Below are positions 18,540 through 53,554 of a stretch of DNA of 64,000 nucleotides, one piece after another. The DNA is taken from the NCBI GenBank assembly GCA_037178675.1, contig JAYMGJ010000555.1:1-64000 (forward strand), given 5' to 3'. This DNA comes from Scleroderma bovista (lineage: Eukaryota; Basidiomycota; Agaricomycetes; Boletales; Sclerodermataceae). The position numbers were made by a program, and so were the translations under genes. The notes under the pieces were generated by a model. The model worked only from the letters and a program-made list of their open reading frames with translations. It was not told where the DNA came from and did not search any database. Position 1 is the stretch's first letter. Every line of letters starts with the position of its first letter.

Positions 18540-19240
18540 TTTGGTAATAAATATTAGCACACTTTTGATACACTTTTACTACACTTTTACTACACTTTTT
18601 TTGTACACTTTTATTACACATTTTGATACACTTTTACTACACTTTGGCAACACTGTTACTACGCTATTTTGGTACACTTTTATTACACTTGTTGATACAT
18701 GCTTACTACACTTTTTGTTCCACTGTCACTACGCTTTTTTGGTACACTTATATTACACTTTTTTGATACACTTTAGGTGGACTTTTATTACACTTTCACT
18801 ACGCTTTTTGGTACACTTTATTACACTTTTTGGTACACTTTGATTAAACTTTTTTGATACACTTTGGGTACACTTTCACTACACTTTTTGATACACTTTT
18901 ATTACAGTTTTGGTACACTTTCTTTACACTTTCACTACGCTTTTTTGGTACACTTTATTACACTTTTTGGTACACTTGTACTACACTTTCACTACGCTTT
19001 TTTGATACACTTTTGGTACACTTTTATTACACTTACATTATGCTTTTGTGGTACACTTTTTGTACACTTTTACTACACTTTTGGGACACTTTTATTACAC
19101 TTTCACTATGCTTTTTTGGTACACTTTCACTACACTTTCAGTACACTTTTATTACACTTTTTGATACATGTTTACTACACTTTCTGGGTACACTTTCATT
19201 ACACATTTTTGGTACACTTTCACTACACTGTTACTACACA
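18540..19240. repeat. Minisatellite of TACACTTTTATTACACTTT-type units
   Basis: About 700 bases of imperfect ~12-24-bp units made of TACACTTT and ACTACACTTT with interspersed TTTGGTACA. The open frames across it (up to 159 codons, Tyr/Thr/Phe/His-rich) are a by-product of the repeat. Related loose copies begin near 18475. Confidence 0.95.
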
Positions 19241-19514
19241 CAAAGTAGACAAAGTACACCTAATCCACATTCCACAACATTAGCTAATCAGGACTACCCA
19301 TTTTTGGTAATCAATATGATGCCACCAATATAGATAGGGGCTATTTGCATATGTTATTTTTACCACTTCAGGTCTTACTAATGATTATAGCTAATGATTA
19401 GTAGAGTCTGTTCATGGTCTTACATAAGCAATGGATTAAAATTTAAAAGAGTTATGATGAAAATAAAAAAGTTGCATGCGAAAAGTTTTTTGTGTAACAC
19501 CCAACTCATGTTGG

Positions 19515-19835
19515 TGATTCACCAGCCCTTCATGGTGATTCACCAGCCACCCATGGCGATTCACCAGACCTCCATGGTGATTCGCCAAACCTTCATGGTG
19601 ATTTGCCAGACCTTCATGGTGATTCACCAGCCACCCATGGTGATTTGCCAAATGTTCATGGTGATTTGCCAGACCTTCATGGTGATTTGCCAGCCCCCTC
19701 TGGCGATTCACCAGACCTCCATGGTGATTTGCCAGCCACCCATGGCAACTCGCCAGACCTTCATGGCAATTTGCCAGCCACCCATGGTGATTCACCCACC
19801 CCCATGGCAACTTGCCAAACCTTCATGGTGATGGT
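19515..19835. repeat. 21-bp tandem repeat (ATGGTGATTTGCCAGACCTTC type)
   Basis: About 15 units of 21 bp. Because 21 is a multiple of three, both strands stay open (repeat HGDLPDL on plus). No start context or flanking coding sequence supports a gene. Confidence 0.95.
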
Positions 19836-21180
19836 CCATTTTCAGCTGGTGAAAGTCCATATAGCCCTTGTTAAGGTTCATTTCCAGCTGGCAAAAGTCC
19901 CTTATAGCACCTGTTAAGGTCCATTTTCAGCTGGTGAATGCCCATACAACCCCTGTTAAGGTCCATTTTCAGCTGGTGAAAGTCCCATATAGCTCCCATT
20001 AAGGTCCATTTTCACCTGGTGAAAGCCCATATAGCCCTCATTAAGGTCCATTTTCAGCTGGTGAAAGTCCCATATAGCTCCCATTAAGGTCCATTTTCAG
20101 CTGGTGAAAGCCCATACAGCCCCTGTTAAGGTCCATTTTCAGCTTGTGAAAGTCCCATATAGCTCCCATTAAGGTCCATTTTCACCTGGTGAAAGCCCAT
20201 ATAGCCCCCATTAAGGTCCATTTCCAGCTGGCAAAAGTCCCTTATAGCACCTGTTAAGGTCCATTTTCAGCTGGTGAATGCCCATACAACCCCTGTTAAG
20301 GTCCATTTTCAGCTGGTGAAAGTCCCATATAGCTCCCATTAAGGTCCATTTTCAGCTGGTGAAAGCCCATACAGCCCCTGTTAAGGTCCATTTTCAGCTT
20401 GTGAAAGTCCCATATAGCTCCCATTAAGGTCCATTTTCACCTGGTGAAAGCCCATATAGCCCCCATTAAGGTCCATTTCCAGCTGGCAAAAGTCCCTTAT
20501 AGCACCTGTTAAGGTCCATTTTCAGCTGGTGAATGCCCATACAACCCCTGTTAAGGTCCATTTTCAGCTGGTGAAAGTCCCATATAGCTCCCATTAAGGT
20601 CCATTTTCACCTGGTGAAAGCCCATATAGCCCTCATTAAGGTCCATTTTCAGCTGGTGAAAGTCCCATATAGCTCCCATTAAGGTCCATTTTCAGCTGGT
20701 GAAAGCCCATACAGCCCCTGTTAAGGTCCATTTTCAGCTTGTGAAAGTCCCATATAGCTCCCATTAAGGTCCATTTTCACCTGGTGAAAGCCCATATAGC
20801 CCCCATTAAGGTCCATTTCCAGCTGGCAAAAGTCCCTTATAGCACCTGTTAAGGTCCATTTTCAGCTGGTGAATGCCCATACAACCCCTGTTAAGGTCCA
20901 TTTTCAGCTGGTGAAAGTCCCATATAGCTCCCATTAAGGTCCATTTTCACCTGGTGAAAGCCCATATAGCCCCCATTAAGGTCCATTTTTAGCTAGCGAA
21001 AGTCCCATATAGCTCCCATTAAGGTCCATTTCTAGCTGGCAAAAGCCCATATAGCCCTCATTAAGGTCCATTTTCAGCTGGTGAAAGTCCCATATAGCTC
21101 CCATTAAGGTCCATTTCTAGCTGGCGAAAGTCCCATATAGCCCCCATTAGGGTCCATTTTCAACTGGCGAAAGCCCAGCA
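19836..21180. repeat. 42-43-bp satellite (GGTCCATTTTCAGCTGGTGA type) with higher-order structure
   Basis: About 31 units, each containing GGTCCATTTTCAGCTGGTGA followed by AAGTCCCATATAGC or AGCCCATACAGCC and ending TTAA. A diagnostic variant unit (TTTCCAGCTGGCAAAAGTCC) recurs at 19881, 20221, 20476 and 20816, spaced 340, 255 and 340 bp. That is 8, 6 and 8 units, so blocks have been duplicated as groups. The first half of each unit resembles the 21-bp repeat just upstream (GGTGAATTGCC/GGTGA words). Confidence 0.95.
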
Positions 21181-32892: not shown

Positions 32893-35187
32893 ATGTCAGC
32901 CTCACGGCCTCTCGACGGTTTAATGTCCGATTCTTGCACTCATGCCATGTCTGCCACCAGTTTCACTAGTCCCAGTCCTCAGCCCCGCTCCTTGACTCCA
33001 CCCGTATCCATGCCAGCGCCGCCCTCTACGCCGACTCCATCGACACCTCGCCGCTCCAGCATGCACGCCCTCGTATCATGGCTTCGCTCACCAACGACCT
33101 TCATTGGCCTGCGCCCTCCACTCATTACCAGCATCGCCCGGCGTTCTCTGAAACGTCCTCGCCCGTCTTCTGCGCACGCTGCTGGCTCTCTCCCCGCTAT
33201 CGTCCTCCAGACCTATTCTGCCTCCACGGAGGGCATCATACTCACCGCCCTCCCCACTGCACCGTTCTGCTGCCACGAAGACCTCCTCACTATGCCCCGC
33301 GAACGGCTCGAGGGCGTCGTGCGCACGCTTAACGAGAAGCTGCCCCGCCGCATGCGGATCGCCGGGTTGGATGACGACCCGATGGGCTGGACGAGCAGCG
33401 ACGATGATGACGACGCTGACGACGACGATGGGGAAGGCGACGTCGGCGCTGCGATTGCGAGGATGTCGGATGCGGAGATGAGGAAGTGGGTCGAGGAGTT
33501 GGTCGGGATTAGACGAGTGGACCCGGGGAATCTGAGTCTTTCTGCGCTTGACCTGGGCACCCGCACCCTCGTTGGGATGGATGTGTCTCCACCCACACTG
33601 GCCTCGTCCCCAGCGCCGTCACCACGCACCCGCAACATCGTGTGGCCCATAGAGGACATGGTCTCGTCAGACATGGACACGGACACGGACGGCAATGACG
33701 ATGCCATAGACGGGGTCGGCCTTGGAGTCGACGCTGGGTTGCACAGCAGAGCAGACGACCTCAGCGAAGACGCCGCCAACTTACTCGCACCCTCCAATGC
33801 CTTCACCATGTGCTCGAGAACGTATTCTCATCCACGTGGGCGCGGAAATTTAGCTATGCCGCTTGCAGCCCTGAAGGAAGAAAACGAGCCGGAGGAGGAG
33901 CATGTCGGGGGCGAGGCCGTCTGCAGCAACGTGGATGAAGACGGAGGTAGAGACGAAGGCGAAGCAGGGGAGGCTGTCCATGTGGCCAAGCGTCGTCGTG
34001 TCTTATTCAGCGAAGACGAGCATGTGTCCGCCGCTTCTCGCCGTGTCCCAACGGCCCAAGGCTCCCGCCTTCTCGAAGACCTCGATGTCTCTGCATCTCC
34101 AATATTCGATTGGGACGCCGACGATGACGACTTGCGTGGTCGATCCTCCACCAAGCCGGCGATCGGTGCTAGCCCCAACAAGCAGAAGCGCCCCGCGAAC
34201 AAATTGCGGCGTCGACCGCGGAGCGCCCGTGTGCCAGAGCGTGAACGCGTGGACAGTCAGCCCGCATCGGTACACAGTGCTACGAGGCCAGTCTCGTTCC
34301 CTCCGTGCCACTTTAGCATATGCAGCTCTCGTTCCCGCTCTAGCTCGTACGAGGCTCCGCTGCCACATAGCCCCAGCCCAACCACGATTCCCATCCCCGC
34401 AAGCACAAGCGACACCACTAGCGAGCGCTCTTGCAAACCCGTCGAGCCTCGTATTCTGCGCTCGCCATCCGCCCATGCCGACACGCATACCCAACACACG
34501 TCTCCATCTGTAGACCCCGATCACGCGTCGTCTACTATGGCAAGGTCCCAGTCTGAGCGGGTGCCACGTCCAACGGATATAAATGCTACGCTTGTTCCCT
34601 CCCAGCCCCAATCACCAACGCCATCGCGGTCCAGTTCCCGAACACGCTCCAGCTGGCCCCGCTTCGGCAGGACACGAACGCGGGAAAGTGAAGAATGCTC
34701 TCTGACTGCGGGTACCCCTCCAAGCATTACAGATGGTCCTTTGCCATCGGGCGATGTCGATGTGTCCTCCCGGACGTCCTTGTCCTCTTTCGTAGCGGTC
34801 CCAGCCCAGAGCCAGAGCCAGTGCCAGGATCAGATGCGCGCTGCCAGCAGTGGCAGGGACGACACACGTCACGGTGCGCTGTCCAGCCCTACCTCGGCCC
34901 CTACTACATGCGCCAGTATCGCCCCGTCCACCCTCACGTCTCCGTTTTCATTTTTGTCGTCTACGCCGCGATCGAGGGCGCGTTCGGTGAGCAGCAGTGT
35001 TGTGTCTCGTTCGCGTTTCGAGAACGAGCACGAGCACCAGCAAGCACGCGAGAACGAACAGGCTGCGTCTTCGAGGGACAGCGGGTTGGGAAATGTGGAT
35101 CTGGGTGAGGGTATCGTTGAGGGGATATGGACGGCGCTGGGAAAGATGGAGGTAGATGTGGCATCATCGTCGGTGGAGTGCCAATAG
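32893..35187 (+). CDS. Large Ser/Pro-rich hypothetical protein with acidic tract
   Basis: A single open frame of 764 codons from ATG 32893 (MSASRPLDGLMSDSCTHAMS) to TAG 35187. I prefer this ATG because the frame upstream has no other ATG. Visible parts: a basic Ser/Pro-rich N-terminus (RRSSMHALVSWLRSP), a globular-looking block MPRERLEGVVRTLNEKLPRR, an acidic run of Asp (33395-33435), EMRKWVEELVGIRR, a possible nuclear signal AKRRRVLF (33985) and NKLRRRPRSAR (34200), then a Ser/Arg/Pro-rich disordered tail and the end LGEGIVEGIWTALGKMEVDV. GC content and codon use differ from the transposon regions, which supports a host gene. I do not recognise the family; it is likely a disordered nuclear or regulatory protein. 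Confidence 0.75.
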   Translation: MSASRPLDGLMSDSCTHAMSATSFTSPSPQPRSLTPPVSMPAPPSTPTPSTPRRSSMHALVSWLRSPTTFIGLRPPLITSIARRSLKRPRPSSAHAAGSLPAIVLQTYSASTEGIILTALPTAPFCCHEDLLTMPRERLEGVVRTLNEKLPRRMRIAGLDDDPMGWTSSDDDDDADDDDGEGDVGAAIARMSDAEMRKWVEELVGIRRVDPGNLSLSALDLGTRTLVGMDVSPPTLASSPAPSPRTRNIVWPIEDMVSSDMDTDTDGNDDAIDGVGLGVDAGLHSRADDLSEDAANLLAPSNAFTMCSRTYSHPRGRGNLAMPLAALKEENEPEEEHVGGEAVCSNVDEDGGRDEGEAGEAVHVAKRRRVLFSEDEHVSAASRRVPTAQGSRLLEDLDVSASPIFDWDADDDDLRGRSSTKPAIGASPNKQKRPANKLRRRPRSARVPERERVDSQPASVHSATRPVSFPPCHFSICSSRSRSSSYEAPLPHSPSPTTIPIPASTSDTTSERSCKPVEPRILRSPSAHADTHTQHTSPSVDPDHASSTMARSQSERVPRPTDINATLVPSQPQSPTPSRSSSRTRSSWPRFGRTRTRESEECSLTAGTPPSITDGPLPSGDVDVSSRTSLSSFVAVPAQSQSQCQDQMRAASSGRDDTRHGALSSPTSAPTTCASIAPSTLTSPFSFLSSTPRSRARSVSSSVVSRSRFENEHEHQQARENEQAASSRDSGLGNVDLGEGIVEGIWTALGKMEVDVASSSVECQ

Positions 35188-36040
35188 ATCAGGGTGTGGG
35201 TTGTATTTATGTTTTTCTCTCTCGCTTTTTCTTCGTTCGTTTGTTTCATTCGTTTCAGCGATTGGGACGGTCATGGATAGATCATAATTTGTAGCTTTGT
35301 TGGCCATTGTATCTGGGTTTATGTATAGGCGACCAGGAGCGCATTTTAGTGTACTTTCCCCCCTAGTATTCTCTCGACATGTATCAGTTACGATTCTGTT
35401 TTTTTACGAGTATCAGGACCTGTATTTTCCCTAGCACTTTGCAAGTGGTGAACACTCGTACTCAGTACTCTACCTCCAATGGTACAAACCAAGCGTGGCG
35501 GGTTACATTATCCTGAGACGCGGCCGTATCATTTGACCACCCCAAAAGTCGAAAGGATGGTCGCCACCCGCTGATCCGCACAAGAAACCCAGGTTCATAT
35601 CGGGGACTGGTGCCCGTTTTACGTCCACCCTCGAAGCGACAGTTTTGCTGAAGAGGCGGTGATGAAACTCTACCGGGCAATGGGCCCACCGAGTTGTACA
35701 TCGTGTTGCCCTTTGACCAACCGCCGTGTGCACCACCGTCGAGCAATACTCTATGCACGGTGTTTCCCAGCCGCGATTTTATTTACACACCCGCGAAGGG
35801 ACATTCTATCCCGCCAAGTGTCCGACAAAACCCATCGAGTTCTCACAACGAACCGTGCGTTTTCATCTCAATTTTCATCCTCGAGTAGTAATGACCGTAT
35901 GTTTCGTAAGGCCATTCCCGCAGTTGCTCGGGCATCCCTTCCCGATCAGTGAAAGGCCGTGAAAGAAGGTCCTCGCGTAGGATAACCTATTCCTGGGACT
36001 CTGGGGCGCGTCCCACACGAGCTGACCCCTGGCAGGACAG
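35188..36040. other. Intergenic region between the hypothetical gene and the cerato-platanin
   Basis: Holds the 3' end of the upstream gene (T-rich 35195-35250) and the promoter of the downstream one. No coding call. Confidence 0.5.
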
Positions 36041-36049
36041 TATATAAAG
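36041..36049 (+). promoter_or_regulatory. TATA box of the cerato-platanin gene
   Basis: TATATAAAG lies 46 bases before the ATG at 36095, a normal distance for a compact, strongly expressed fungal gene with a short leader. Confidence 0.75.
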
Positions 36050-36094
36050 CGGTTCGAAACCACCCAGATCGCCAGCCCCAACCAGACTCTAGAC

Positions 36095-36556
36095 ATGTTC
36101 CTTAGCTCTCTCTCCACCAAGTTCGCCGCCTCTGCCCTCCTCATCGCCCTCTCCCCACTCCTTGTGCTCCCCACACACGCCCAGACCTCATCCTCTCTCT
36201 CCTACGACCCCGTCTACGGCACAGACACGACACCCCTCAGTAGTCTTGCCTGCTCGAACGGGGCGAACGGACTAGGCACAAAATACCCCACGCTCGGCTC
36301 GCTGAAGAACTTTCCTAATGTCGGCGCGGCACCTACCGTGTCGCAGTGGGGCGACCCCAATTGCGGGAAATGCTACACGGTCACATATGCGCCGACTGGC
36401 GTCAGTGTCAGCATCGTCGCTGTGGATGTGGGGCGGGGCGGGTTTGTGGTGTCTCAGCAGGCGATGGATACGTTGACGGACAACCAGGCTTTGTTCTACG
36501 GGAGGGTCAATGTCACGTATGTAGAGGCGGATCTGAGCGCGTGTCAGTTGCCATGA
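36095..36556 (+). CDS. Cerato-platanin family secreted protein
   Basis: 153 codons without introns. Residues 1-29 are a signal peptide (MFLSSLSTKFAASALLIALS then PLLVLPTHA, cleavage after AHA/HAQ). The mature part has the family pattern: LSYDPVYGTDTTPLSSLACS, a Gly/Lys loop ending in FPNVGAAPTVSQWGDPNCGKC, YTVTYAPTG, SIVAVDVGRGGFVVS, and the end ADLSACQLP. Four cysteines are placed as in the family and should form two disulfides. The length is typical. Cerato-platanins are small wall-associated or secreted proteins with an expansin-like barrel, known as elicitors and surface-active proteins. This is an intact host gene with its own TATA box. Confidence 0.95.
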   Translation: MFLSSLSTKFAASALLIALSPLLVLPTHAQTSSSLSYDPVYGTDTTPLSSLACSNGANGLGTKYPTLGSLKNFPNVGAAPTVSQWGDPNCGKCYTVTYAPTGVSVSIVAVDVGRGGFVVSQQAMDTLTDNQALFYGRVNVTYVEADLSACQLP

Positions 36557-39420: not shown

Positions 39421-40551
39421 TGAGTGGAAGTGAGATCGAGGAAGCCGACCACATGGAAGGGGAAGGAAGAAAGAAGTGATGGTGAGGTCACCTTTACGAC
39501 AAAGCAATCTCCACCGAGGGCCATGATACGATGTGCGAGAATGGGTGGTACTCGAGCATCCTATGACAGACGGAAAATAAGCCCAAAAATCGATGGGTGA
39601 AAAGGAACGCACTTGATAAACTTCTTGACGAAATCGCCCGTCGATGGCATGTTATCATCGCTGTCCTTTTGACGTGGTTGTGGGGGTGGTGGCTGAGAGG
39701 ATTGCAGTTGCTCGGCTTTGAGTTGTCTCGTCTCCATGGTACTGGATGCATTTTGGTGATGTGGGTGTTGTTGGTGGTGTGGGCTGTATGAGGGGAGCGT
39801 GTCGTCGCGGGAGATGGATGCCCAGGGGATGGAAGTGGAGGAGGAGAGGGCAGTGGAGGCGTGGAGACGGATGCCGGTGGGTGGGATAAGGAGACATGCG
39901 GGACGAGCTTCCTACAATGAAGTCTAACTTGTGTCGAGCTGCCCAATCCGCAAACCTCTCTTGCATGGTGAGTGCTCCTCGTGCCCGCGACGTTCAATAT
40001 CCGCACCGTCCCTGAGGGATACAGTATAAAGGAGGTTAATTTATATGTGAACGATTTCGACAGAGTACCACGCACCAGTGCGAGTGCTTTGAAGTCAAGC
40101 AAGCGGTGTTCTGCGAGGACGTTCATCATAGGAAATACAACAATGATGGTGCTCAGCTCCTTCAGTTGCAGTGGTAGCGAACAAAAGTACGGCCATCGGC
40201 CATTCAAAATATGGATGTGGGATAGTAATGGTGGTATCCATCATGGTACCTTCGACGGTGCCACTGATTGCTGCACCTTTCTCACCAATCGGGTCACTGA
40301 ATCTAAGCTAGGAGGGAATGAGTTACTTGGCTTGTCTTAGGAGAGGGCAAGTGCTGTCGAGAAATCCATTCAGCCATCATGACGGCACCTAGTTTCACTG
40401 ATCTGAGTAGAATCGGAATGCACCGTGTTGCGCCTCGTTGAGTCAATGAGGCTGCCCGATAAGCGCCCTGATAGCGTCCTTGTCTTGCGACGCTTTCAAT
40501 CCAACCACCACACACCCACCTCCGCTCGACACACAACTTTTCCTGACAACC
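39421..40551. other. Region between the ABC pseudogene and the GTPase gene
   Basis: 39640-39960 is G/T-rich low complexity. 40000-40210 holds a minus-strand frame (LPLQLKELSTIIVVFPMMNV) that could be older exons of the ABC gene, but the match is weak. 40440-40551 should contain the GTPase promoter. Confidence 0.35.
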
Positions 40552-42324
40552 ATGGTTCCTAGAGTCATCAACAAAGTCTTGGCTTCTCTGCCATTCAAGA
40601 ATGCGGGGAAGCATGGCGCAAACCCCAGAGCAAGTGCGTATATATGATTCATTGGATAGCGTACATTAGCAGTGTGGTCACCGACTCCTCTCTACAGGTG
40701 CTGACGATGTGCATCACATAGATCCTATGGACGTCAGAAACCCTAAGCATCATGACGCGGGCTCCAGCGCAGGTGGGTGCTTATGTCCAATATCGTGAAC
40801 CGAATAACATACATTAACAATTGGATGATGATCGGCTTGTTTCTCCAGGTGCTAACGATACACTTCGAATGGACCCTGCGGACGTCAGCAAGACTGAGCA
40901 GCCAATTTCCAGTGCAGGTGAGTCCTTGTGTCCGATATCATGGTCCGGACGGCGTACATTACCAAGTTGGCGACTAACTCCTCTCACAGGTGCTGATGAT
41001 GTGCTTCACATGGATTCTGCAGACGTCAGAAACACTGAGCAGCGTAACCTGGGATCCAGCGCAGGTGAGTGCTTATGGCCAATGTCATGGACATTAACGG
41101 CATGGTGACCAACCACTCTAGGTGCTGATGATATGCTTCGCATGGATCCTAAGACCATCAGAAAGCACTTCGACCGTATTGGTCGCTTTAGAGTCCTCGT
41201 CATCGGCAGATCCAATGCTGGTAAAACCACTCTCTTACAGCGCGTTTGCAATACTACAGAGCTCCCCGAAGTCTTCAATGCCAAAGGTGAAAAGGTAGGA
41301 TGTCTCGCTGCACAATATTGGAAGGTAATTGATGAATATTCTCAGCTTGATCCTACGGTTGTGCAGGGATCTCTGGAGGTGCATTTCACGACTCTGGGAC
41401 ATGACATTAACAAACTAATAATGCCCAGAGGGGATATCATGACATTGAGAATGAGTTGATTTTTCGGAGCAATCCAGGCTTTGTCTTTCATGACTCACGA
41501 GGATTCGAGTCAGGCTCTGTGAGCGAATTAGAGATGATGAAGAAATTCATCGCAGACAGAGCTATGAAAAAGCAGTTAGCAGAGCGGATCCACGCTGTCT
41601 GGTGAGACTATGTTACCAAATCTGATCAAGTAGCTAAAATTTAGAATCTAGGTTTTGTATTCCAATGGATGAGTCTCACAGGGCAATTTTGACTGCAGAA
41701 GAACAATTCTTCAAAGAGTGCAATACTGAACATGGTGAGAATCTCCATTATGGTTTGTAATACATGGTCTGAATAATTATTGTATAGTCCCAGTGATTGT
41801 GTTGTTGACAAAAGCTGATGCAATGGAGGGGATGGCAATTGGGAGGCTTAGAGATGAAGGTATACAAATGAAAGATGCAATGGAAATGGCTGGGGACTTG
41901 GGAAAACAAATTCTGAGTGAGGTTAGCACAAAAATCAAAATCCAATTGAATGGGTGCAAGTACCCACCAAAGGACTATCTGTCACTGCATGGTAAGATAT
42001 ATCATCTGGACCTTTCCTGTGAGTATGCTAATGGTGCTGTTTTATGGAGGTATGAACAGAGAAGGTGCAGATTGTGATTCACTTATAAGATGTACCACAA
42101 GTGCACTTGATGGGGTTGAACTACAGAAGCTAGTGATATCAGCACAACAAATCAATTTTGATCTGAATATTGAATTTGCTATTAGGTGAGTGAATTATGT
42201 GACAAACTGGAAGATAGATGATATTTTAATGGTTTGCAGAAGGATCATAAACATGGCAAAGGGAGAAACCTTTCACAAGGATTTTCTGGAATATGAAATA
42301 CTTGCATGGATGCCAATGTTTCCA
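40552..42324 (+). CDS. AIG1-like P-loop GTPase of the fungal expanded family, N-terminal exons
   Basis: Exon 1 starts ATG 40552 (MVPRVINKVLASLPFKNAGK). Three short repeat exons follow, then 41122-41294 with the G1 loop VLVIGRSNAGKTTLLQRVCN; 41346-41378 (LDPTVVQGSLE); 41429-41601 with FVFHDSRGFESGS (G3, DxxG); 41652-41734 (CIPMDESHRAILTAEEQFF); 41788-41991 with VPVIVLLTKADAMEG (G4 TKAD); 42050-42185 (GMNREGADCDSLI...LQKLVISAQQINFDLNIEFA); 42240-42324 (RRIINMAKGETFHKDF). All splice junctions are GT-AG and in phase, with introns of 50-71 nt. The family is expanded in agaricomycetes and its role is unknown. The last donor (42325 GTAAGA) leads into the 81-bp array, so the 3' structure is uncertain; possible later exons are at 44360-44739. 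Confidence 0.88.
40698..41064 (+). repeat. Tandem duplicated exon-intron units in the GTPase gene
   Basis: Three exons, 40698-40772 (75 nt), 40849-40917 (69 nt) and 40990-41064 (75 nt), plus the start of the next exon (41122), are copies of one unit encoding GADDVLHMDxADVRxxxQ...SSAG. Introns between them are also alike (GTGAGTGCTTATG... CTCTCACAG). Every unit is symmetric phase 1-1, so any number can be kept or skipped without a frame change. Confidence 0.92.
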
Positions 42325-42390
42325 GTAAGAGGGTTATACTAGGTTTGGACATTGATATAAGATAATTCACAACTCTGGTCCTGTTGGCTT

Positions 42391-44018
42391 GACAGGAAGT
42401 GAGTGATTTCATGGCAGGTGCAGCTGGGTCTGTTCTCACTGCCTTCACTGCTACTCTGGTCCTGTTGGCTTGACAGCAAGTGAGTGATTTCATGGCAGGT
42501 CCAACTAGGTGTCTTCTCACTGTCTTCACCCCCACTCTGGTCCTGTTGCCTTGACAGGCTGTGAGTGATTTCATGGCAGGTCCAGCTGGGTCTGTTCTCA
42601 CTGCCTTCACTGTCACTCTGGTCCTGTTGGCTTGACAGTTGGTGAGTGATTTCATGGCAGGTGCAGCTGGGTCTGTTCTCACTGTCTTCACTGCCACTCT
42701 GGTCCTGTTGGCTTGACAGTTGGTGAGTGATTTCATGGCAGGTGCAGCTGGGTCTGTCCTCACTGCCTTCACTGCCACTCTGGTCCTGTTGGCTTGACAG
42801 TTGGTGAGTGATTTCATGGCAGGTGCAGCTGGGTCTGTTCTCACTGCCTTCACTGCCACTCTGGTCCTGTTGGCTTGACAGCGAGTGAGTGATTTCATGG
42901 CAGGTGCAGCTGGGTCTGTTCTCACTGCCTTCACTGCCACTCTGGTCCTGTTGGCTTGACAGCAAGTGAGTGATTTCATGGCAGGTGCAGCTGGGTCTGT
43001 TCTCACTGCCTTCACTGCCACTCTGGTCCTGTTGGCTTGACAGTGGGTGAGTGATTTCATGGCAGGTGCAGCTGGGTCTGTTCTCACTGCCTTCACTGCC
43101 ACTCTGGTCCTGTTGGCTTGACAGTTGGTGAGTGATTTCATGGCAGGTGCAGCTGGGTCTGTTCTCACTGCCTTCACTGCCACTCTGGTCCTGTTGGCTT
43201 GACAGTTGGTGAGTGATTTCATGGCAGGTGCAGCTGGGTCTGTTCTCACTGCCTTCACTGCCACTCTGGTCCTGTTGGCTTGACAGTTGGTGAGTGATTT
43301 CATGGCAGGTGCAGCTGGGTCTGTTCTCACTGCCTTCACTGCCACTCTGGTCCTGTTGGCTTGACAGTGGGTGAGTGATTTCATGGCAGGTGCAGCTGGG
43401 TCTGTTCTCACTGTCTTCACTGCCACTCTGGTCCTGTTGGCTTGACAGCAAGTGAGTGATTTCATGGCAGGTGCAGCTGGGTCTGTTCTCACTGCCTTCA
43501 CTGCCACTCTGGTCCTGTTGGCTTGACAGTTGGTGAGTGATTTCATGGCAGGTGCAGCTGGGTCTGTTCTCACTGCCTTCACTGCCACTCTGGTCCTGTT
43601 GGCTTGACAGCGAGTGAGTGATTTCATGGCAGGTGCAGCTGGGTCTGTTCTCACTGCCTTCACTGCCACTCTGGTCCTGTTGGCTTGACAGTTGGTGAGT
43701 GATTTCATGGCAGGTGCAGCTGGGTCTGTTCTCACTGCCTTCACTGCCACTCTGGTCCTGTTGGCTTGACAGCGAGTGAGTGATTTCATGGCAGGTGCAG
43801 CTGGGTCTGTTCTCACTGCCTTCACTGCCACTCTGGTCCTGTTGGCTTGACAGCGAGTGAGTGATTTCATGGCAGGTGCAGCTGGGTCTGTTCTCACTGC
43901 CTTCACTGCCACTCTGGTCCTGTTGGCTTGACAGCAAGTGAGTGATTTCATGGCAGGTGCAGCTGGGTCTGTTCTCACTGCCTTCACTGCCACTCTGGTC
44001 CTGTTGGCTTGACAGCAA
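42391..44018. repeat. 81-bp minisatellite, 21 exact-period units, intron-like
   Basis: TTGACAG recurs every 81 bp, with GACAG at 42391 to 44011 and no length change. Each unit is GTGAGTGATTTCATGGCAGG ... CTTGACAG (78 nt) plus three bases. The triplet between ACAG and GTGAGT is the most variable part: GAA, CAA, GCT, TTG, CGA, TGG. The minus strand stays open for 609 codons because the period is a multiple of three. The array follows the GTPase donor at 42325 with an intron-sized gap of 71 nt. Confidence 0.97.
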
Positions 44019-44739
44019 GTGAGTGATTTCATGGCAGGTGTAGCTGGGTCTGTTCTCACATTATAATTTTTCAATTTCTTATAGCAAGTAAGTTAACAAC
44101 ACATCATCTCACAATCTAATGTAACAGTCATTAGGATGTTGGTCATATCATATATTTTCTGCCAAAATGTTGCCTGATTTCTCATTTTCAATCCATTAGC
44201 AGGTTAGTTTTATTTTCTATATTCCATCATTTTCCTCACCTTGACAATTAGGCATTAGTGTGTTATCAATATTTACCTTTTCTATATATCTTAAATTTTG
44301 TAGATGGTATGATGAATTTCTATTTATATCTAAAAGTGATATATCTAATCAAATCCTAGCAAATGCTTGATATTAACACATCTTTCAAAGTTCCTTTGAT
44401 GTTTCCTGGATCTATTGTCTCTTCTATGCATAAGTGCATCATTCATGGTGTTGGTGAGCAAATTATATTGCCCTTCTAGTATTTACCATAATGGTCAAAG
44501 GATGTCTCATTGTTTATGAGTACTCCTACTTCCATTTACAGGCCAAGGGAAATCCCCAAGATGTTATTGCATTTGCTGTCAAGAAGTATGAAGACTCTGG
44601 AACACAAGCCAATGTTTTCCATAGCCTTCAGCAGGTGCTTCAGCAGCACGATTGTGCTTCTGTTACATTGCAAAAACTCATATTTGATATTATTCTGAGG
44701 AACCGCATGTGTCAGTTTCTGATCTTCAATAATATTTGA
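44019..44739 (+). other. Possible 3' exons of the GTPase gene
   Basis: After the array, a TTTCTTATAG acceptor (44084), CAA and a GTAAGT donor (44088) continue the same acceptor-CAA-donor pattern outside the repeat. An exon-like piece follows at 44360-44453 (MLDINTSFKVPLMFPGSIVS), then an exon after CATTTACAG (44542 onward): AKGNPQDVIAFAVKKYEDSG, VFHSLQQVLQQHDCASVTLQ, ending TGA 44739. Phases between these pieces do not fit perfectly, so the true gene end is unproven. Confidence 0.4.
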
Positions 44740-45149
44740 TCTAACATTTTTTATAGCCAATAGGTTCAAATGATGAACCATTGTTTATTGTTTTTGTTGT
44801 CAATAGTCATTCTATACATTTTTGCAAACCCCCTTAGGGTTAGGGAGTGCTAAGGTAGAGTTTTGTACCCCAATATGACACAAATCATGGCTTAGGATGA
44901 TTTGCACAGTACATATGTACTATGATATTTGATTTGCATGACATATTTGTTCCATATTTTCATGCAAATTGACTGGGTCCATTGTTTGCACAAGTGAATG
45001 GAATAAAAATGTGCAAATCAATTGGGTCTCCCATTTTCACATTTTGACTATTTGACAATGCTGACAACTATTCTATACATTTTGCAAACCTCCTAACCAA
45101 CTACTCTGTCACATAAACTGTCATTCTATGTCCCTTTTGTGTAAGGTTG
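44740..45149. other. AT-rich spacer
   Basis: No coding or repeat call. A pair of similar words (TATTCTATACATTTTGCAAAC near 44811 and 45071) suggests a small local duplication. Confidence 0.4.
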
Positions 45150-45520
45150 GTGTGAGTCAAAATGTGGATTTGGGTTGGAACAATAACCCAAACACAACAC
45201 CAACAAAGGACTACAAAAAATGCAAGTGGTGGTTTACCTTTGCAGTGTCCAGAGAGGATATGCTGAGGAGGGGGAAGGAGGATCTACACCAACAGGGTGA
45301 TGCAGACAATGATGCAGGATACTCCTGGGGTACAGGAGCAGTAGATGATGAAGGGGATAGGGGTCTGGACTCTTCCTTTAGCCTACTAGGAAGTGTCAAA
45401 GTGGGGATTGAGTTGACAGAGACTAAAGTAGCAATACTACACCTAGAGATTGGTGCAGCAGAGGGGCAAGGGGGCTCCTGACATCCAGAAGCAATAGGGG
45501 ATGAAGGATTGACAGGCTTT
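45150..45520 (-). mobile_element. Element E1, fourth copy, short piece
   Basis: Matches 1179-1540 of the complete E1 from GTGTGAGTCAAA to GACAGGCT, then stops. More diverged than the copy at 17513. Confidence 0.88.
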
Positions 45521-46019
45521 TTTAGATTCTCCTCCATCAAGCAAGGGTTCTGCTGATGGAGGCAGCACTTTGAGTCTGTCACCCCATAAATTGTGGGAAC
45601 ACCGCCCCTAACATTCTGGGCTTTACCACCCTCTACTTATCTACCTTCTAAGTTTGCCATAGTTGCTTACTGCAATGTGGTTTAATACAGCATCATATGT
45701 ACAAGACCACCCCACCAAAGACAACAACAACAACAACAACTATCTGCATCCCACAGAAGCATGGCCACAACTATGACCTCAACCACCTATGGACCTGCCA
45801 CATGCAGAGGCATGGCAATGACACCTGCCTGCAGCAACGACAATGGCTGCCTACAGCCACCCCACCATGATGCCCGGATCTGCAGTCCAGTGGAATGATG
45901 GTGATGTCACAGCCTTGTGCCATCAGTTGAGCATCTGGTCGTGATTGGTGATCCTCTTCAACTTCAACCCACATTGAACAACTTCTGTGTGTTTGCTAAC
46001 CCAACTCTTGAGCTCCACT

Positions 46020-46816
46020 GCTAACTCTAGTTTTTAGGCCTCTCAATGGACAGTAGAAGTGGCAGGGAATTCTTCAGATTTGATATGTCTCAGATGGAAT
46101 GTCTTTCAAGTTCTGGTTTACCAGTGTTGCCACTCAATGTGCAGTGGCACATGAGACCTTCCATTTCTAGTTTGATCCAGTGAGTTCGGTTTCACTTCGT
46201 CCATACTGCCATTTGTTCAATCCGCATTCCCTAGAAATATGTTGTACCCTGGATCACAGGACACAAGCTAGTACTCAATTACCCTGATGTCCATGGTATG
46301 AAAAAGAACTTGTTCTTCATTGGTCATAACCACAAAGAGAATGGCAGAGCAGATGACACTGCAAGCAAGCATAATACATATGAGGTAAGCTCACTGTCAA
46401 TACTTCTTACTCAGGAGTTGACCTGGGTAATGATTGAAGGTGGAAATGATCCACAACTTGGTCTTGTACTTGCTCAGGTGGGGTTCCAGATCTGCACTGG
46501 CAGTATCATAAATGTAATCATTTTCCCCTCTAGGCAAGGTTGTTATACAGAGGAGGGTGATATTGTCGTCTTATGCATGTACCTTGGACAACTTGCCCAG
46601 CTACGAGATGCCTTTGCAGGCAAGGTCATCACTGTCATTGATGAACATGATCAAGCAGTCCTTGCTGATCAAGAGGCTGAGGTTGAGAATGATATGGAAG
46701 GCACAGGTATCGAGCAGATCAGAGTCATGAAGTGGGTAATGCATGTCCAATACACTATACTCATTGTTCTTACCCTGCTGCAGGTGAGATTGCACAGCTT
46801 GCCTGTGGAACATTAA
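46020..46816 (+). pseudogene. SF1 helicase fragment A (NFX1/ZNFX1-like), RecA2 part
   Basis: Plus-strand pieces read LSMDSRSGREFFRFDMSQME, LPVLPLNVQWHMRPSISSL, YPDVHGMKKNLFFIGHNHKE then SKHNTYEV, and after an intron (acceptor CCCCTCTAG near 46530) QGCYTEEGDIVVLCMYLGQL, RDAFAGKVITVIDEHDQAVL. This is the order of the second RecA domain in the UPF1-like superfamily 1 helicases related to ZNFX1. MRPSI is motif IV-like. The first RecA domain with the Walker A motif is absent, so only a fragment remains. A transposon-borne or duplicated copy is likely. Confidence 0.75.
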
Positions 46817-47169
46817 AAACAACATCTACCATGTAGGCAGTATGCAGAGGCATGCCTGACAACAATGATGCCCATGAACAGCCACTGCTGCTGTGGATCA
46901 TCGACAATGTCTACCTGTAGCAAGACACACCAATGACGCCTGCTTGCGGCACCATATGGCCTCTACTGATGTGGGACATCATGCGAACTAGTGATATACC
47001 CCTTGATATGCCCTTAGGGGCTAAGTACCCATGTAAGGGTAAGAAACATCTTGCCAACATATTTGATCACACAAAGGAATTGTACCACAGCAAGGTGGCC
47101 TGTCAAATTGTCAATGAAGCCCTAGATGACACTACTCCCAGCATCATGGATGCAGTGGAGTGCTGAAGC

Positions 47170-47815
47170 AATGTGGGTCTTCTTCTTATTAGTATTTGCA
47201 GACAATAACAACCCAGCTTTTGACAGATCACTTGAATCCAAATTGTTAAGGATGGCATCCATCTCATTCCTTAGTTCATCGTGGAGCAGCAATAGTTGAC
47301 CAAGGTAAGGTGTCAAGATGATGATGATGTCACTTCCATACCCCTGCTGAGCTAAATAATGCACTACTTTGAGCACCATCTTCACCTCGAACATGTTATG
47401 TTTTGACAACATTGCACCTCTGTTGGCATGGTCCAAAATCCACTTGTCATCATCTTCTGGGTGGGTATGATTGAGGAAAATGATGTTACTTTGCAAACCA
47501 CAAATGTTCTCCCTGTTCTGTGTTTGAGGTGAGTCTTGGAGAGTTGGATATGTGAGTGAACATATAAATTCAGATATCTCAGGACACATGCAGTGCTGAA
47601 CAGAAAGGGTGTCATGAGGGAAGCCTTTCTGCACCAGGTGTTTGAAAAGCGACCTGTTCAAGTCAAATTCTTCGCCTTTTTCCACTGTCAGATTATAGTT
47701 GTTCACTTTTGGTCACAGTTGCCTGTGGACATGGCAATTAGCGCATCGTCAGGCATAGTGAACAAGTAGACATTACTGGTGGTCACCAATAAGAATCATC
47801 TGCTTAGTGCTCAGG
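47170..47815 (-). pseudogene. SF1 helicase fragment B (NFX1/ZNFX1-like), opposite strand
   Basis: The minus strand reads QMILIGDHQ (motif III GDxQ-like, 47790), then after stops PKVNNYNLTVEKGEEFDLNR, HDTLSVQHCMCPEISEFICS, NIIFLNHTHPEDD, SKHNMFEVKMVLKVVHYLAQ, IIIILTPYLGQLLLLHDELR. It is a different family member from fragment A. RMxP of motif IV is changed to CMCP. The stop codons and missing N-terminal domain mark it as a relic. The two fragments face each other about 350 bp apart. Confidence 0.75.
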
Positions 47816-47835
47816 CCCAAGGCCAGGCTATAGTG

Positions 47836-47985
47836 TCACTTTGATGCATCAATTAACTGTAGTAATTGGGCAGGGTGTGGTGCAAGAACCCTTACAATGA
47901 ACCCTAGCATTGTAATGCATCAGTGATGCCACATCTGTGATGCATCATGCCGCATCAATAGTCTGATGCATTGCTCCCCATTATA
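47836..47985. repeat. Cluster of TGATGCATCA palindromes
   Basis: Full or near matches at 47841, 47917, 47938 and 47970 in a 150-bp stretch. The same word is clustered again at 63418-63760. Confidence 0.8.
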
Positions 47986-48129
47986 GCAATCTCAACCACC
48001 CCAATTTGGCACAACTGTTGATGCCATTGGATCTCCCAGCAGATCTGCACCTTTTTGTGGCTTTGTTTCCCCATGTCCCTGACAACTTCCACACATGGCT
48101 GTCTTTCTATTAGTCAGCTGAGGGCAGAA

Positions 48130-48790
48130 ATGTGAGGGTTGTCTTCTTGCTCTTGCCCTCCACAACACCTGTCTTTTCTTTTGCATGCATGCACCTTTTC
48201 TCCTCTCAGGTCCGGGGTAAGCATGAAACATTAGCCATCTTTTACCATGGTTTTGACATGTGCCAGCTCAGCTGCATTGGTGTCAGTTGTTTTGAACCAG
48301 AAACCCCTCCAGGTTGGCTCCAGCATTCTTCCTCTCACCCACCACCACCTCCTGCACTATTCCCTGTGGCGCCTGTCATTTCTTTTGCACCCACCCAACT
48401 CTCCTGCTCCCAGCCACCTTTCCCCATGTTTTTGACATGTGCCAACTCAGCCGCATTGGTGTTAGTTGTTTTAAGCTGGGAACCCCTCCAGGTTGGTTTC
48501 AGCCTCCTCTTCCTCTCACCCCTCACCACCACGTCTAGCACTACACCCTGTGACCTTGGAAAGCCCATCATTTCTTTCACATTCACCCACCCCCCCTCTC
48601 CTAGGTCTGGGCTAAGCATGAAACATCAGCCAGCCACCTTCCACCTTCCACCCTTTGCCTGACACAACTCACTCAATATTCTGTGTTTTTGACACACTAA
48701 CCTGCTGGGTTCCCATCCTGCCCTCACAGTTCAGCAGCATTGGTGTTGGTTGTTTTGGGTGAGAAACCCCTCTGGGTTTCGCCCAAGTCC
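48130..48790. repeat. Imperfect ~180-bp tandem repeat, three units
   Basis: Units begin at about 48250, 48428 and 48640. They share TTTGACATGTGCCAGCTCAG, GCATTGGTGTCAGTTGTTTT, AACCCCTCCAGGTTGG and CTCACCCACCACCAC words. They contain open frames, but similarity extends across all frames, so I read this as repeat DNA. Confidence 0.8.
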
Positions 48791-50740: not shown

Positions 50741-53554
50741 TTAGGTGCAGGATTCCAGACTGCAAAAGGTAGGTTCGCATACGGTGAGGTTCTCGGGGAT
50801 CCAAGTAAATAACAAGTTGAAGTCCGACTGCGCCATGCGAAGCTTTTGAGGGGCAGAGGAATTTTCCTTATAAAAACACTTGACTACCAGAGGAGAATTT
50901 TTCAGATTTGACGAGGGTTCCCACATTCTTTTGTGTTCTTCATACCCTTTCCAATGTACCAAGTACTGGAGCTGGCGTCTATAAATATGAGATGCTACAA
51001 TATAGTCCACTTCATACTCTTCATCGCATTCTTCAGAAACGTGTACTGGTCCGGGCCAAGGAACGGGTTGTCCAGGGAGTGGACCTAAATAAGGTTTGAC
51101 TCAGGAAACATTCACTACCAGGTGAATGCAAAGAGTTTTCGGGAGCTTAAGCTCAACCACGTTTGGGGTTACACGAGTGACCTCATAGGGGCCAATCCAT
51201 TTCTCTGTGAGCTTCTTAGAAGCATGATTTAACATATGAAGGTTGTCTGTTGACAGCCAGACTTGCTGACCGACAGTATAATCTGGGGTGAGATTTCTAT
51301 GCTTATCCGCCTGAAGCTTCATGTTGCGTTTAGCCTTCTCAGAAGATTCAATGACTTTGTTAAATATGGCAGCAAAGTCCTTAGCTGCTGGGGCTACTGT
51401 CTGCACTGGTTCTATACCCATACATGGGGAATAACTCCGGGTAATTCCAAATGGGGAATTGGTGGTAACCTCCAAGACTGTGTTGTTCCAAACAAATTGG
51501 GTGGTCTTGATCCACTTGGCCCAATCGCTTTGGTGGTTGTTAACATAAGTTCGAAGGTACTGATTGATTTCATGGTTTAACTGCTCTGTTTGACCATCAG
51601 TTTGAGGGTGAAATGCAGTAGACATCTTGTGCTTTATGCCTAAGAGTCTGTACAACTCCCCCAGGAAGTTGCTCACAAAGATTGATCCACAGTCTGAAAC
51701 CACAGTGCTAGGAAGTCCATGTTGGCACCAGATGTGGTCTCTAAATAACTCAGCGGTTGTCAATGTGGTTTCCTCTTTAGTGCATGGCACAAAGACTACT
51801 TCCTTGGAGAACCAATCAACAACCACTAATACATAGTTATAACCAAGGGATTCCGGCATCTTGGTAAAGTCCATTGTGACATCAAGCCATGGTCCTTCTG
51901 GGACAGGGAGAGGGAGGAGGCTTCCAGAAGTCTTCTGATTCGAAACTATTGACTGTTGGCACTTTTGACAGTGCTTTACATAGGTCTGGATCTGCTCTTT
52001 CATCCCTTTCCAGGTATAGTGCTTCCTGAGTGCATTAAACGTGGCCTTGACACCCTTATGTCCAGCAACAGGTGTGTCATGAATGTCCGTGATTAGTGAC
52101 TGGTGCTCCTCATAAGTCTGATCTGTAATGTTGATCAATTTGATAGATATGGGGTTTAACAAGGTTTGATCCTTGTTGTTGTCAGAGCTCAAGACATAAT
52201 AGTCCGATCGCCTACTGAGCAGATCTGCAACATGCATCTGGGTTCCTTTCTTATAAATTAACGAGTAGTTGAAGTGCGTCATCCACATCTGCCAGCATGC
52301 TTGGCGCTTGGAGAGATTCTGTGACTTCATGAAATATGTTAAGTTATGGTGGTCTGTATAAATCTCAAGGGCATAAGGAGTGGCCTCAAGATAATGGTGC
52401 CAGGCCTCTGTTGCTTTTATAATGGCCAGCATCTCTTTGTTGTGAATAGGATAGTTGCATTCTGGCAGGGTCATAGAGTGCAATATGTATGCTACTGGTC
52501 TGAATTTGCTGTCCTCGCACTTAATGGATATCACTCCCCTGATGGCAAACTCAGACACATCAGTTTCAAGGCAGAATTCATGGTCCTGGTTGGGGTACTG
52601 AAGTACCAGTGCATGAGTAAAAGCAGCCTTCAAGGCTTCAAACACAACATGTTCCTTATCACTGAAGTGGAACACAACATCTTTACACATTAAGTCTGTC
52701 AGTGGCCTAGCCATGATCACATAGTCTTTAATAAAGCATCTATAGAAGTTGCCACAGCCTAAGAATGCTCGAACCTGTTTGACATTCATTGGCTCAGGCC
52801 ACTTCAAAATAGCATTAACCTTTTCAAGGGCCATCTTTATTCCATCACGTGAGACTATCATTCTGAGGAAGTCAACTTTGGTAACGTGGAAGCGACACTT
52901 CTCAGGTTTGACAAATAAGTCATTGTCACGTAAACATTTTAAGACTTCAAGCACGATCCTGTCATGCTTGTCCTGATCGTCTGTGTTCGTAAATATCATC
53001 AGGTCGTCAATGTACACCATGCAAACACCCGACATATCATGGAAGATTTTGTTCATCATCTTCTGGAATGTCGCAGGTGAATTACATAGACTGAAATACA
53101 TAACAATAGGCTCAAAAGCCCCTTTGTGCGTTACAAATGCAGCTTTCCACTCATCGCCCTCCTTGATCCAGACATTATTATATCCCCAACAAAGATCCAT
53201 TTTTGTGAAGAGTTTACATCCTTTCAGCTTGTCAACAAGCTGACTAATCAGGGGTAGTAGATAGCTATTTTTAACAGTCCACTCATTTAAATAGTGATAG
53301 TCCTGAACCATGCACTTCTTGCCATCTTTCTTGGGGACAAAGAAAACAGGGGAAGTCTGAGGAGAGATGGATGGGCAAATATATCCTTTTGCAAGTTGAT
53401 TGTCAACAAAGTCTTCAACTTCCTTCTGTTCATCCACCAACAGGGGTATCAAACGCCCTTTCTTAGGTGAGAAGTCCTCCCTGAGATCTATACCATGATC
53501 CCATGGCTTCCTAAGCGGCATGCATTCAGACGACTTCTTCGAGAAGACATCCAA
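50741..53554 (-). pseudogene. Ty3/gypsy chromovirus pol: RT, RNase H, integrase, chromodomain
   Basis: A long minus frame (53554-51101) with RT blocks FVPKKDGKKCMVQDYHYLNE and the catalytic YIDDLMIF; RNase H LETDVSEFAI and YTDHHNLTYF; the integrase zinc part HDTPVAGHKGV...HCQKCQQ; DDE core MDFTKMPE, VVSDCGSIF and HPQTDGQTEQLNHE. Past an in-frame TGA (51101) the protein continues KPYLGPLPGQPVPWPGPVHV, EVDYIVASHIYRRQLQYLVH, WKGYEEHKRMWEP: a chromodomain that would steer insertion to modified histones. Upstream two more TGA stops (53571 area and 53651) separate it from the protease, in the same frame. All three stops fit CGA to TGA. Otherwise the element is well preserved. Confidence 0.93.

Follow-up and report, generated by a model that had tools for sequence, protein, structure and literature searches.

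The question raised by this locus was whether an 81-bp tandem array within a predicted GTPase gene is a non-coding expansion or a run of introns separated by exons of a single codon each. The window, which is the whole 64,000-nucleotide stretch of DNA that was analysed, corresponds to contig C554 of a genome of 51.8 Mb in 850 contigs, and this genome was searched. An initial annotation had described the array as 21 introns separated by single variable codons, with an intron that had expanded from one unit as the other possibility. The analysis favoured the first description, and we consider it probable from the sequence patterns described below that the 78-nt units are working introns, that the triplets between them are one-codon exons, and that the gene encodes a GTPase with a hypervariable insert.

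A pattern count in the window detected 21 plus-strand sites of the form CAG-NNN-GTGAGT at 42396 to 44018 with a spacing of exactly 81 bp. Tandem Repeats Finder reported an array at 42372 to 44059 with a period of 81, 20.8 copies, 96% matches, 0% indels, and a score of 3019, and the annotated 81-bp period without slips was thus reproduced. The 78-nt bodies between the triplets were nearly identical. The triplets were, in order, GAA, CAA, GCT, TTG, TTG, TTG, CGA, CAA, TGG, TTG, TTG, TTG, TGG, CAA, TTG, CGA, TTG, CGA, CGA, CAA, and CAA; only GAA, CAA, GCT, TTG, CGA, and TGG were used, and none of the 21 was a stop codon. In the model of the locus, the 21 putative one-codon exons (42396 to 42398 and then every 81 bases to 44016 to 44018) had 20 introns between them, each 78 nt long, all on the plus strand. 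They were preceded by a first intron of 71 nt (GTAAGA...ACAG; 42325 to 42395, + strand), which in its 3′ part matched the corresponding part of the repeat unit. A branch-point-like CTCAC was present at unit positions 37 to 41 of the first full unit (42435 to 42439, + strand) and recurred in the units. The intron after the last triplet was diverged, with a length of 66 nt and the end TTATAG (44019 to 44084, + strand).

The pattern continued past the array. The acceptor TTATAG, a CAA codon, and a GTAAGT donor had already been annotated there, and two further sites had not been listed. These three predicted one-codon exons, CAA at 44085 to 44087 (AG-CAA-GTAAGT), CAG at 44200 to 44202 (AG-CAG-GTTAGT), and ATG at 44304 to 44306 (AG-ATG-GTATGA), were all on the plus strand and lay in intron sequence unlike the array units. 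When the window and five close copies were aligned (six sequences), AG-CAA-GTAAGT was identical in all six, the CAG site was kept in five of the six, and the AG and GT of the third site were also kept in five of the six, with ATG in four sequences and CTT in one (L012). With all codons included, the window array would encode EQALLLRQWLLLWQLRLRRQQ, followed by Q, Q, and M from the three sites outside it.

The gene holding the array was modelled by hand with GT-AG introns, from an ATG at 40552 to a stop codon ending at 44739 on the plus strand, and its exons had matches in paralogous loci. The GTPase motifs G1, G3, and G4 are defined as GxxxxGKT, DxxG, and TKAD, and translations of the window gene contained GRSNAGKT, DSRG, and TKAD. 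The P-loop GRSNAGKT lay in a G-domain exon at 41122 to 41294 (+ strand), and TKAD lay in another G-domain exon at 41788 (approximate start) to 41991 (+ strand), which gave a 68-residue match in paralogues with up to 99% identity. A Pfam scan was performed on a 372-residue exon-joined window protein that contained only a portion of the last exon and neither the microexons nor a 12-nt exon. MMR_HSR1 (PF01926) was detected with an E value of 1.7e-7 and 31.7 bits (curated cut-off, 21.9), and neither NACHT nor ankyrin families were found in this protein at an E value of ≤0.1. In the genome, NACHT had 70 matches. The last ordinary exon upstream of the array (RIINMAKGETFHKDFLEYEILAWMPMFP; 42241, an approximate start, to 42324, + strand) ended in phase 0, as had been annotated together with the 71-nt size of the intron that follows it. 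The first ordinary exon downstream of the array (QMLDINTSFKVPLMFPGSIVSSMHKCIIHGV; 44360 to 44453, + strand) started in phase 0 and had matches in paralogues, and the last exon (44501 to 44739, + strand) comprised a conserved C-terminal stretch (QAKGNPQDVIAFAVKKYEDSG...) and the stop codon.

Tandemly repeated small exons of 69 to 75 nt each (ADDVHHIDPMDVRNP..., GANDTLRMDPADVS..., and GADDVLHMDSADVRN...) were observed in the 5′ part of the window gene at 40698 to 41121, followed by the G-domain exon beginning GADDMLRMDPKT..., which suggests duplication of exon-intron units in this part of the gene as well. There may also be a 12-nt exon (GGATCTCTGGAG) at 41367 to 41378, between two ordinary G-domain exons.

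Searches of the genome for the pattern AGNNNGTGAGTGATTTCATGG with two or fewer mismatches detected 1,147 sites compared to 0 for a control pattern, which argued against a chance origin of the window array. Near-identical introns gave 394 matches, and the last exon gave 41 matches at an E value of ≤0.001, partial ones among them. Individual positions were listed for approximately 150 of the 394 matches and for 100 of the 1,147 sites. The loci compared were the window, 20 loci drawn from the array matches, and six picked by exon matches. The counts exclude L001 to L008, each a short segment surrounding a match on a contig that was already in the sample. All 27 loci examined belonged to one gene family, six of the 27 having been selected by the exons of that family. 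G-domain exons were found in 19 of the 20 loci taken from array matches and the C-terminal exon in 19 of the 20, in the same orientation as the array; L020, at a contig end, had no G domain, and L027 had no C-terminal match. The flanking exons contained no internal stops, and their pN/pS values (uncorrected, from pooled pairs, with loci lacking an ungapped match over at least 80% of the length dropped from the 27) were 0.23 for the P-loop exon (26 loci), 0.27 (26 loci), 0.44 (19 loci), and 0.57 for the last exon (21 loci). The flanking exons thus evolve under constraint. The number of units with intact sites, as counted in sequence, ranged from 15 to 76 per array, with 76 in L025.

One copy, L011 (C708:36500-46499), was 99.4% identical to the window gene over 1,080 bases upstream of the array and had approximately 2 kb of extra sequence within the intron preceding the array. 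The stretch matching approximately 44172 to 44502 of the window was absent from L011, and with it both the CAG and the ATG site as well as the exon at 44360 to 44453, so some copies may not be functional. The contigs C554 and C708 were collinear, with approximately 96% identity over most of 40243 to 48318, and may represent either two haplotypes or a duplication. Elsewhere in the window, the segment at 35000 to 36500 had no second full copy in the genome, and that at 52000 to 53500 was a piece of a retroelement with many copies.

Splice signals were examined across the loci in units anchored on an internal 9-mer, GATTTCATG, in order to limit circularity. Among 951 anchored units from the 27 loci, GT was present at the expected place in 928, and 912 of these had an AG exactly 3 nt before the GT. 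The remaining units with GT, which count against strict constancy of exon length, had exons of 2 nt (n = 4), 4 nt (n = 3), or 5 nt (n = 3), some of which are perhaps assembly errors in G runs, or had no AG within 12 bases (n = 6). Four units of L020 carried AA instead of AG. Entropy was 1.87, 1.86, and 1.51 bits at the three positions of the triplet, 0.12 to 0.54 bits in the 12 bases downstream (partly the anchor itself), and 0.26 to 0.64 bits in the 8 bases upstream. Analysis of indels detected 8 columns in the 3 triplet positions and 313 in the 78 intron positions, and these values (2.7 versus 4.0 per position) gave no clear difference between triplet and intron and no clear support for constancy of exon length.

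Conservation of individual positions was determined by aligning 908 units from the 27 loci to a consensus. In five loci hand-picked as the most diverged (L029 to L032 and L034; 183 units), the top seven of the 78 intron positions were G1, T2, G5, T38, A40, A77, and G78, with values of 0.978 to 1.000 compared to a mean of 0.835 and a maximum of 0.973 for the remaining positions. The same seven led when all 27 loci (908 units) were included, with A18 just behind T38. When five less diverged loci (167 units) were taken as a second set, these seven positions had values of 0.994 to 1.000, and the non-splice positions A13 and A18 also reached 1.000. T38 was present in 897 of 899 aligned letters and A40 in 899 of 899, or in 0.988 and 0.990 of the 908 units when gaps were counted as misses. 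The branch-point motif is yUnAy, and T38 and A40 fit it, a reading made post hoc, after the counts. On sequence grounds, G1, T2, and G5 would form the donor of each unit and A77 and G78 its acceptor. The search anchors spanned unit positions 7 to 15 or 1 to 16, and the conservation of G1, T2, and G5 is therefore partly built in, whereas T38, A40, A77, and G78 lie in positions 17 to 78, outside the anchor, and are not products of the search. An AG at unit positions 42 to 75 was rare and occurred in 4 of the 764 units of full length. A plain non-coding satellite was rejected, as the splice positions had outlasted the rest of the unit in the diverged loci. The pattern of conservation is that expected from single-unit splicing and would not be required for removal of the whole array.

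The triplets were then considered as codons. No stop was present among the 912 triplets with an AG-3 nt-GT arrangement, in line with the earlier claim that the variable triplet is never a stop. A total of 34 codons were in use, and the commonest were GAA, CAA, TTG, CGA, TTT, TGG, and TAT. Taking the absence of stops alone as proof was rejected as too strong, since the expected number of 136 stops presumes independent positions, and the strength of the test is easily overestimated, given that the loci share a small codon palette inherited via duplication. Under a one-step mutation model, the probability of 0 stops was 0.005 to 0.03. The loci mostly used one codon per residue, with 208 residues from 223 codon types summed over the loci compared to 185.9 for shuffled codes (standard deviation, 11.4; highest, 215), and this is weakly consistent with coding. 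Synonymous choice varied by locus: CGA occurred without AGA in 15 loci, AGA without CGA in 8, both in 1, and neither in 3. TCT was found in five loci, all of which had AGA. Codons that end in C or AG or start with GT accounted for 17 of the 912 triplets, a scarcity that would be expected if such codons disturb splice sites. When translation was continued in frame from the codon into the intron (42399 to 42476 and other units), a hydrophobic stretch, VSDFMAGAAGSVLTAFTATLVLLA, was observed ahead of a TGA near the 3′ end, and, of 764 full-length units, 747 remained open as far as codon 24 in this reading. If introns were retained, truncated proteins with a membrane-like tail would result.

These data supported the annotated series of one-codon exons in which the codon is hypervariable, through the conservation of splice signals and the stop-free variable triplets over 27 loci, the in-frame exons on both sides wherever these were found, and the maintenance of the pattern outside the array in the six aligned copies. 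The best of the competing explanations, which we nevertheless consider improbable, is that the array is one large non-coding intron that was expanded in tandem and is removed whole from 42325 to 44359. The whole-array junction between 42324 and 44360 (MPMFP/QMLD) is also in phase 0, and the gene would therefore work without microexons; moreover, the number of units varies as widely between loci, from 15 to 76, as is seen with expanding repeats. Removal as one intron leaves unexplained, however, why the bases of the donor, branch-like site, and acceptor persist longer than the others in diverged loci and why the triplet between AG and GT is the most variable part of the unit and yet contains no stops in 912 cases. 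Neutral homogenisation would have levelled the triplet too. The annotated possibility of an intron expanded from one unit held in part, in that the array grew by tandem duplication, but the drift of a dead intron fails to explain the kept splice signals and the stop-free triplets.

A recursive splicing ladder with no coding purpose, by which a long intron would be removed stepwise with the triplets left behind or mostly skipped, was judged to be rather less probable again. The splice positions were the best conserved within the units and the AG-NNN-GT form regenerates a donor, both of which would suit such a ladder. Classical recursive splice sites have the form AG/GT and leave zero bases, whereas here three bases would be left at every step, and these are hypervariable and free of stops. 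The low number of synonymous codons per array also fits coding, weakly, rather than this alternative. Serial insertion of introner-like or other mobile intron units was very unlikely. Such units could account for the many near-identical introns in one genome, with 394 matches, but in the 20 loci taken from array matches the units adjoined exons of one gene family, and their regular spacing in one orientation points to tandem duplication. No three-base target duplication was seen, as the triplets flanking a unit often differed, and introner dispersal was set aside within this sample of the matches, in which the examined loci (27, including the six picked by exons) were one family. An antisense gene encoding 27-residue repeats with one variable residue each was the least credible alternative and was also set aside, since, even though two minus-strand frames of 609 and 559 codons were open through the window array (42245 to 44074) and a frame was open over 99 to 100% of the array in 6 of the 27 loci, the longest frame covered just 13 to 88% of the array in the other 21 (13 to 37% in five of the six exon-picked loci), many array periods were not multiples of three, and the arrays ran in the direction of the GTPase gene wherever exons were found, the long antisense frames being a by-product of the 81-bp period.

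The turnover of the codon strings was examined within arrays and between loci. There were 2,683 within-array pairs of units with identical introns, and the codon differed in 2,118 of these pairs, at all three bases in 961. Units with the same codon had introns that were more alike on average in 20 of 27 loci for the downstream intron and in 21 of 27 for the upstream intron, with P values of <0.05 (200 shuffles) in 6 and 10 loci, respectively. The greater similarity of introns in same-codon units indicated that whole units are duplicated and that codon and intron are partly uncoupled. Codon strings were compared in 11 pairs of loci with 500 shuffles. For the window gene and its C708 copy, the likeness of the strings did not exceed that from shuffling (0.41 versus 0.44; P = 0.70), and the strings of the C298/C127 pair, which was 98.0% identical, were also not above shuffling (P = 0.116). 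Strings were shared in 3 of the 11 pairs, L014/L015 and L017/L018 (both P = 0.000; upstream identities of 99.7% and 98.5%, respectively) and L019/L020 (P = 0.026). L014 and L015 were located approximately 99 kb apart on one contig, C271, as nearly identical genes with almost the same codon string, in contrast to most of the other close pairs. Turnover is thus fast in some pairs but not always, since a pair with 99.4% identity had unrelated strings and 3 of 11 pairs shared theirs.

For the reading of the triplets as one-codon exons, the following mechanism is proposed. A 3-nt exon is too short for its donor and acceptor to be bound simultaneously, and sequential splicing from the 5′ side is therefore expected, so that the units would be spliced one by one, probably 5′ to 3′. 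Removal of an intron would fuse the codon to the upstream exon, where it would abut the next GTGAGT donor, and each step of this recursive ladder would add one residue and recreate a donor. The predicted product is a hypervariable insert between the G domain and the conserved C-terminal segment, with a length of 21 to 24 residues in the window gene and up to approximately 76 in other genes. The reading frame would survive any skip, since each exon consists of a single phase-0 codon. Tandem duplication and unequal exchange would grow and reshuffle the arrays and homogenise the introns, while selection would maintain codon diversity and purge stops; we infer a selective pressure for such diversity. 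The position of the insert is plausible for a loop contacting a ligand or partner, and a recognition role may be suggested by analogy with fungal nonself receptors. A more tentative extension, which we regard as possible but doubtful, is that the approximately 40 dispersed GTPase genes form a germline and RNA-level repertoire of codon strings that are reshuffled more rapidly than other parts of the gene and use a small, lineage-specific palette, in which in-frame skipping of any subset of codons would generate many inserts (up to 2^21 for the window gene) for self/nonself or partner recognition.

The window proteins included Plavaka, KDZ, and DUF6830, and there were 47 matches to DUF6533 in the genome; all four are typical of Agaricomycetes. 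Arrays of one-codon exons are already a known kind, as passages in three papers citing Iotti et al. (2012) describe NACHT-ANK (nank) genes, or NLR sensor domains, of Tuber melanosporum as diversified via alternative splicing of 3-bp microexons, with "tens" of codon-sized microexons in one citing wording (PMC3689799, PMC4986451, PMC10197012). The genes examined here resemble those described in these passages in having tens of 3-bp exons between introns (by sequence, 21 in the window and up to 76 in L025), in belonging to an expanded fungal family, and in the diversification of a protein stretch. They differ in that the carrier is a GTPase of the MMR_HSR1 type and not a NACHT-ANK receptor, and in that alternative splicing is reported for Tuber, whereas the present arrays are known from genome sequence alone. 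The carrier is probably also in a different phylum. The open-licence PMC literature, to the extent of the passages available, yielded no description of arrays of one-codon exons from either a GTPase or an agaricomycete. A 2024 abstract states that functional microexons have not been described in filamentous fungi (PMC11121469), which does not fit the passages on Tuber.

Other systems had partial similarities, as far as the cited passages describe them. The NWD/HET-D/HET-R WD-repeat genes of Podospora have repeats of high internal conservation (PMC4986451), and they share with the present arrays near-identical tandem repeats, concerted evolution, few hypervariable positions, and exchange within and between genes. 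In Podospora, however, the repeat is a WD protein repeat that varies in ordinary coding sequence, whereas here the repeat would be an intron with one coding codon per unit. The micro-exon genes of Schistosoma mansoni also have consecutive very short exons, the lengths of which are mostly divisible by three, but with introns of 100 to nearly 5,000 bp, most exons of 15 bp, and secreted products (PMC10526429); the introns here were not long but 78 nt. The 1-nt exon of Fusarium CYP621A (PMC12940212) and the 3-bp exon of Drosophila homothorax (PMC7392893) indicate that exons of 1 to 3 nt can be spliced, but these are single exons and not hypervariable arrays. Stwintrons of fungi likewise involve consecutive splicing reactions but are nested introns removed whole, with a splice signal of one intron interrupted by the other and no codon kept between two excisions (PMC9024468), whereas here every unit carried a donor, a branch-like site, and an acceptor of its own, and neighbouring units lay 3 nt apart.

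If transcripts confirm the one-codon exons, a hypervariable stretch would be assembled codon by codon from such exons in two unrelated fungal protein families. The approximately 900 natural introns with free exon triplets would then provide a test bed for the action of the spliceosome on 3-nt exons, and the GTPase family would be a candidate recognition system. Genes of this type are probably misannotated, since ordinary gene finders are expected to omit 3-nt exons.

A scan of viral contigs for the unit pattern found nothing. Three adjoining minisatellite arrays were also observed in the window at 18554 to 21177, with periods of 11/57 bp (18554 to 19239), 21/42/84 bp (19512 to 19832), and 85 bp (19833 to 21177; 15.8 copies, 88% matches).
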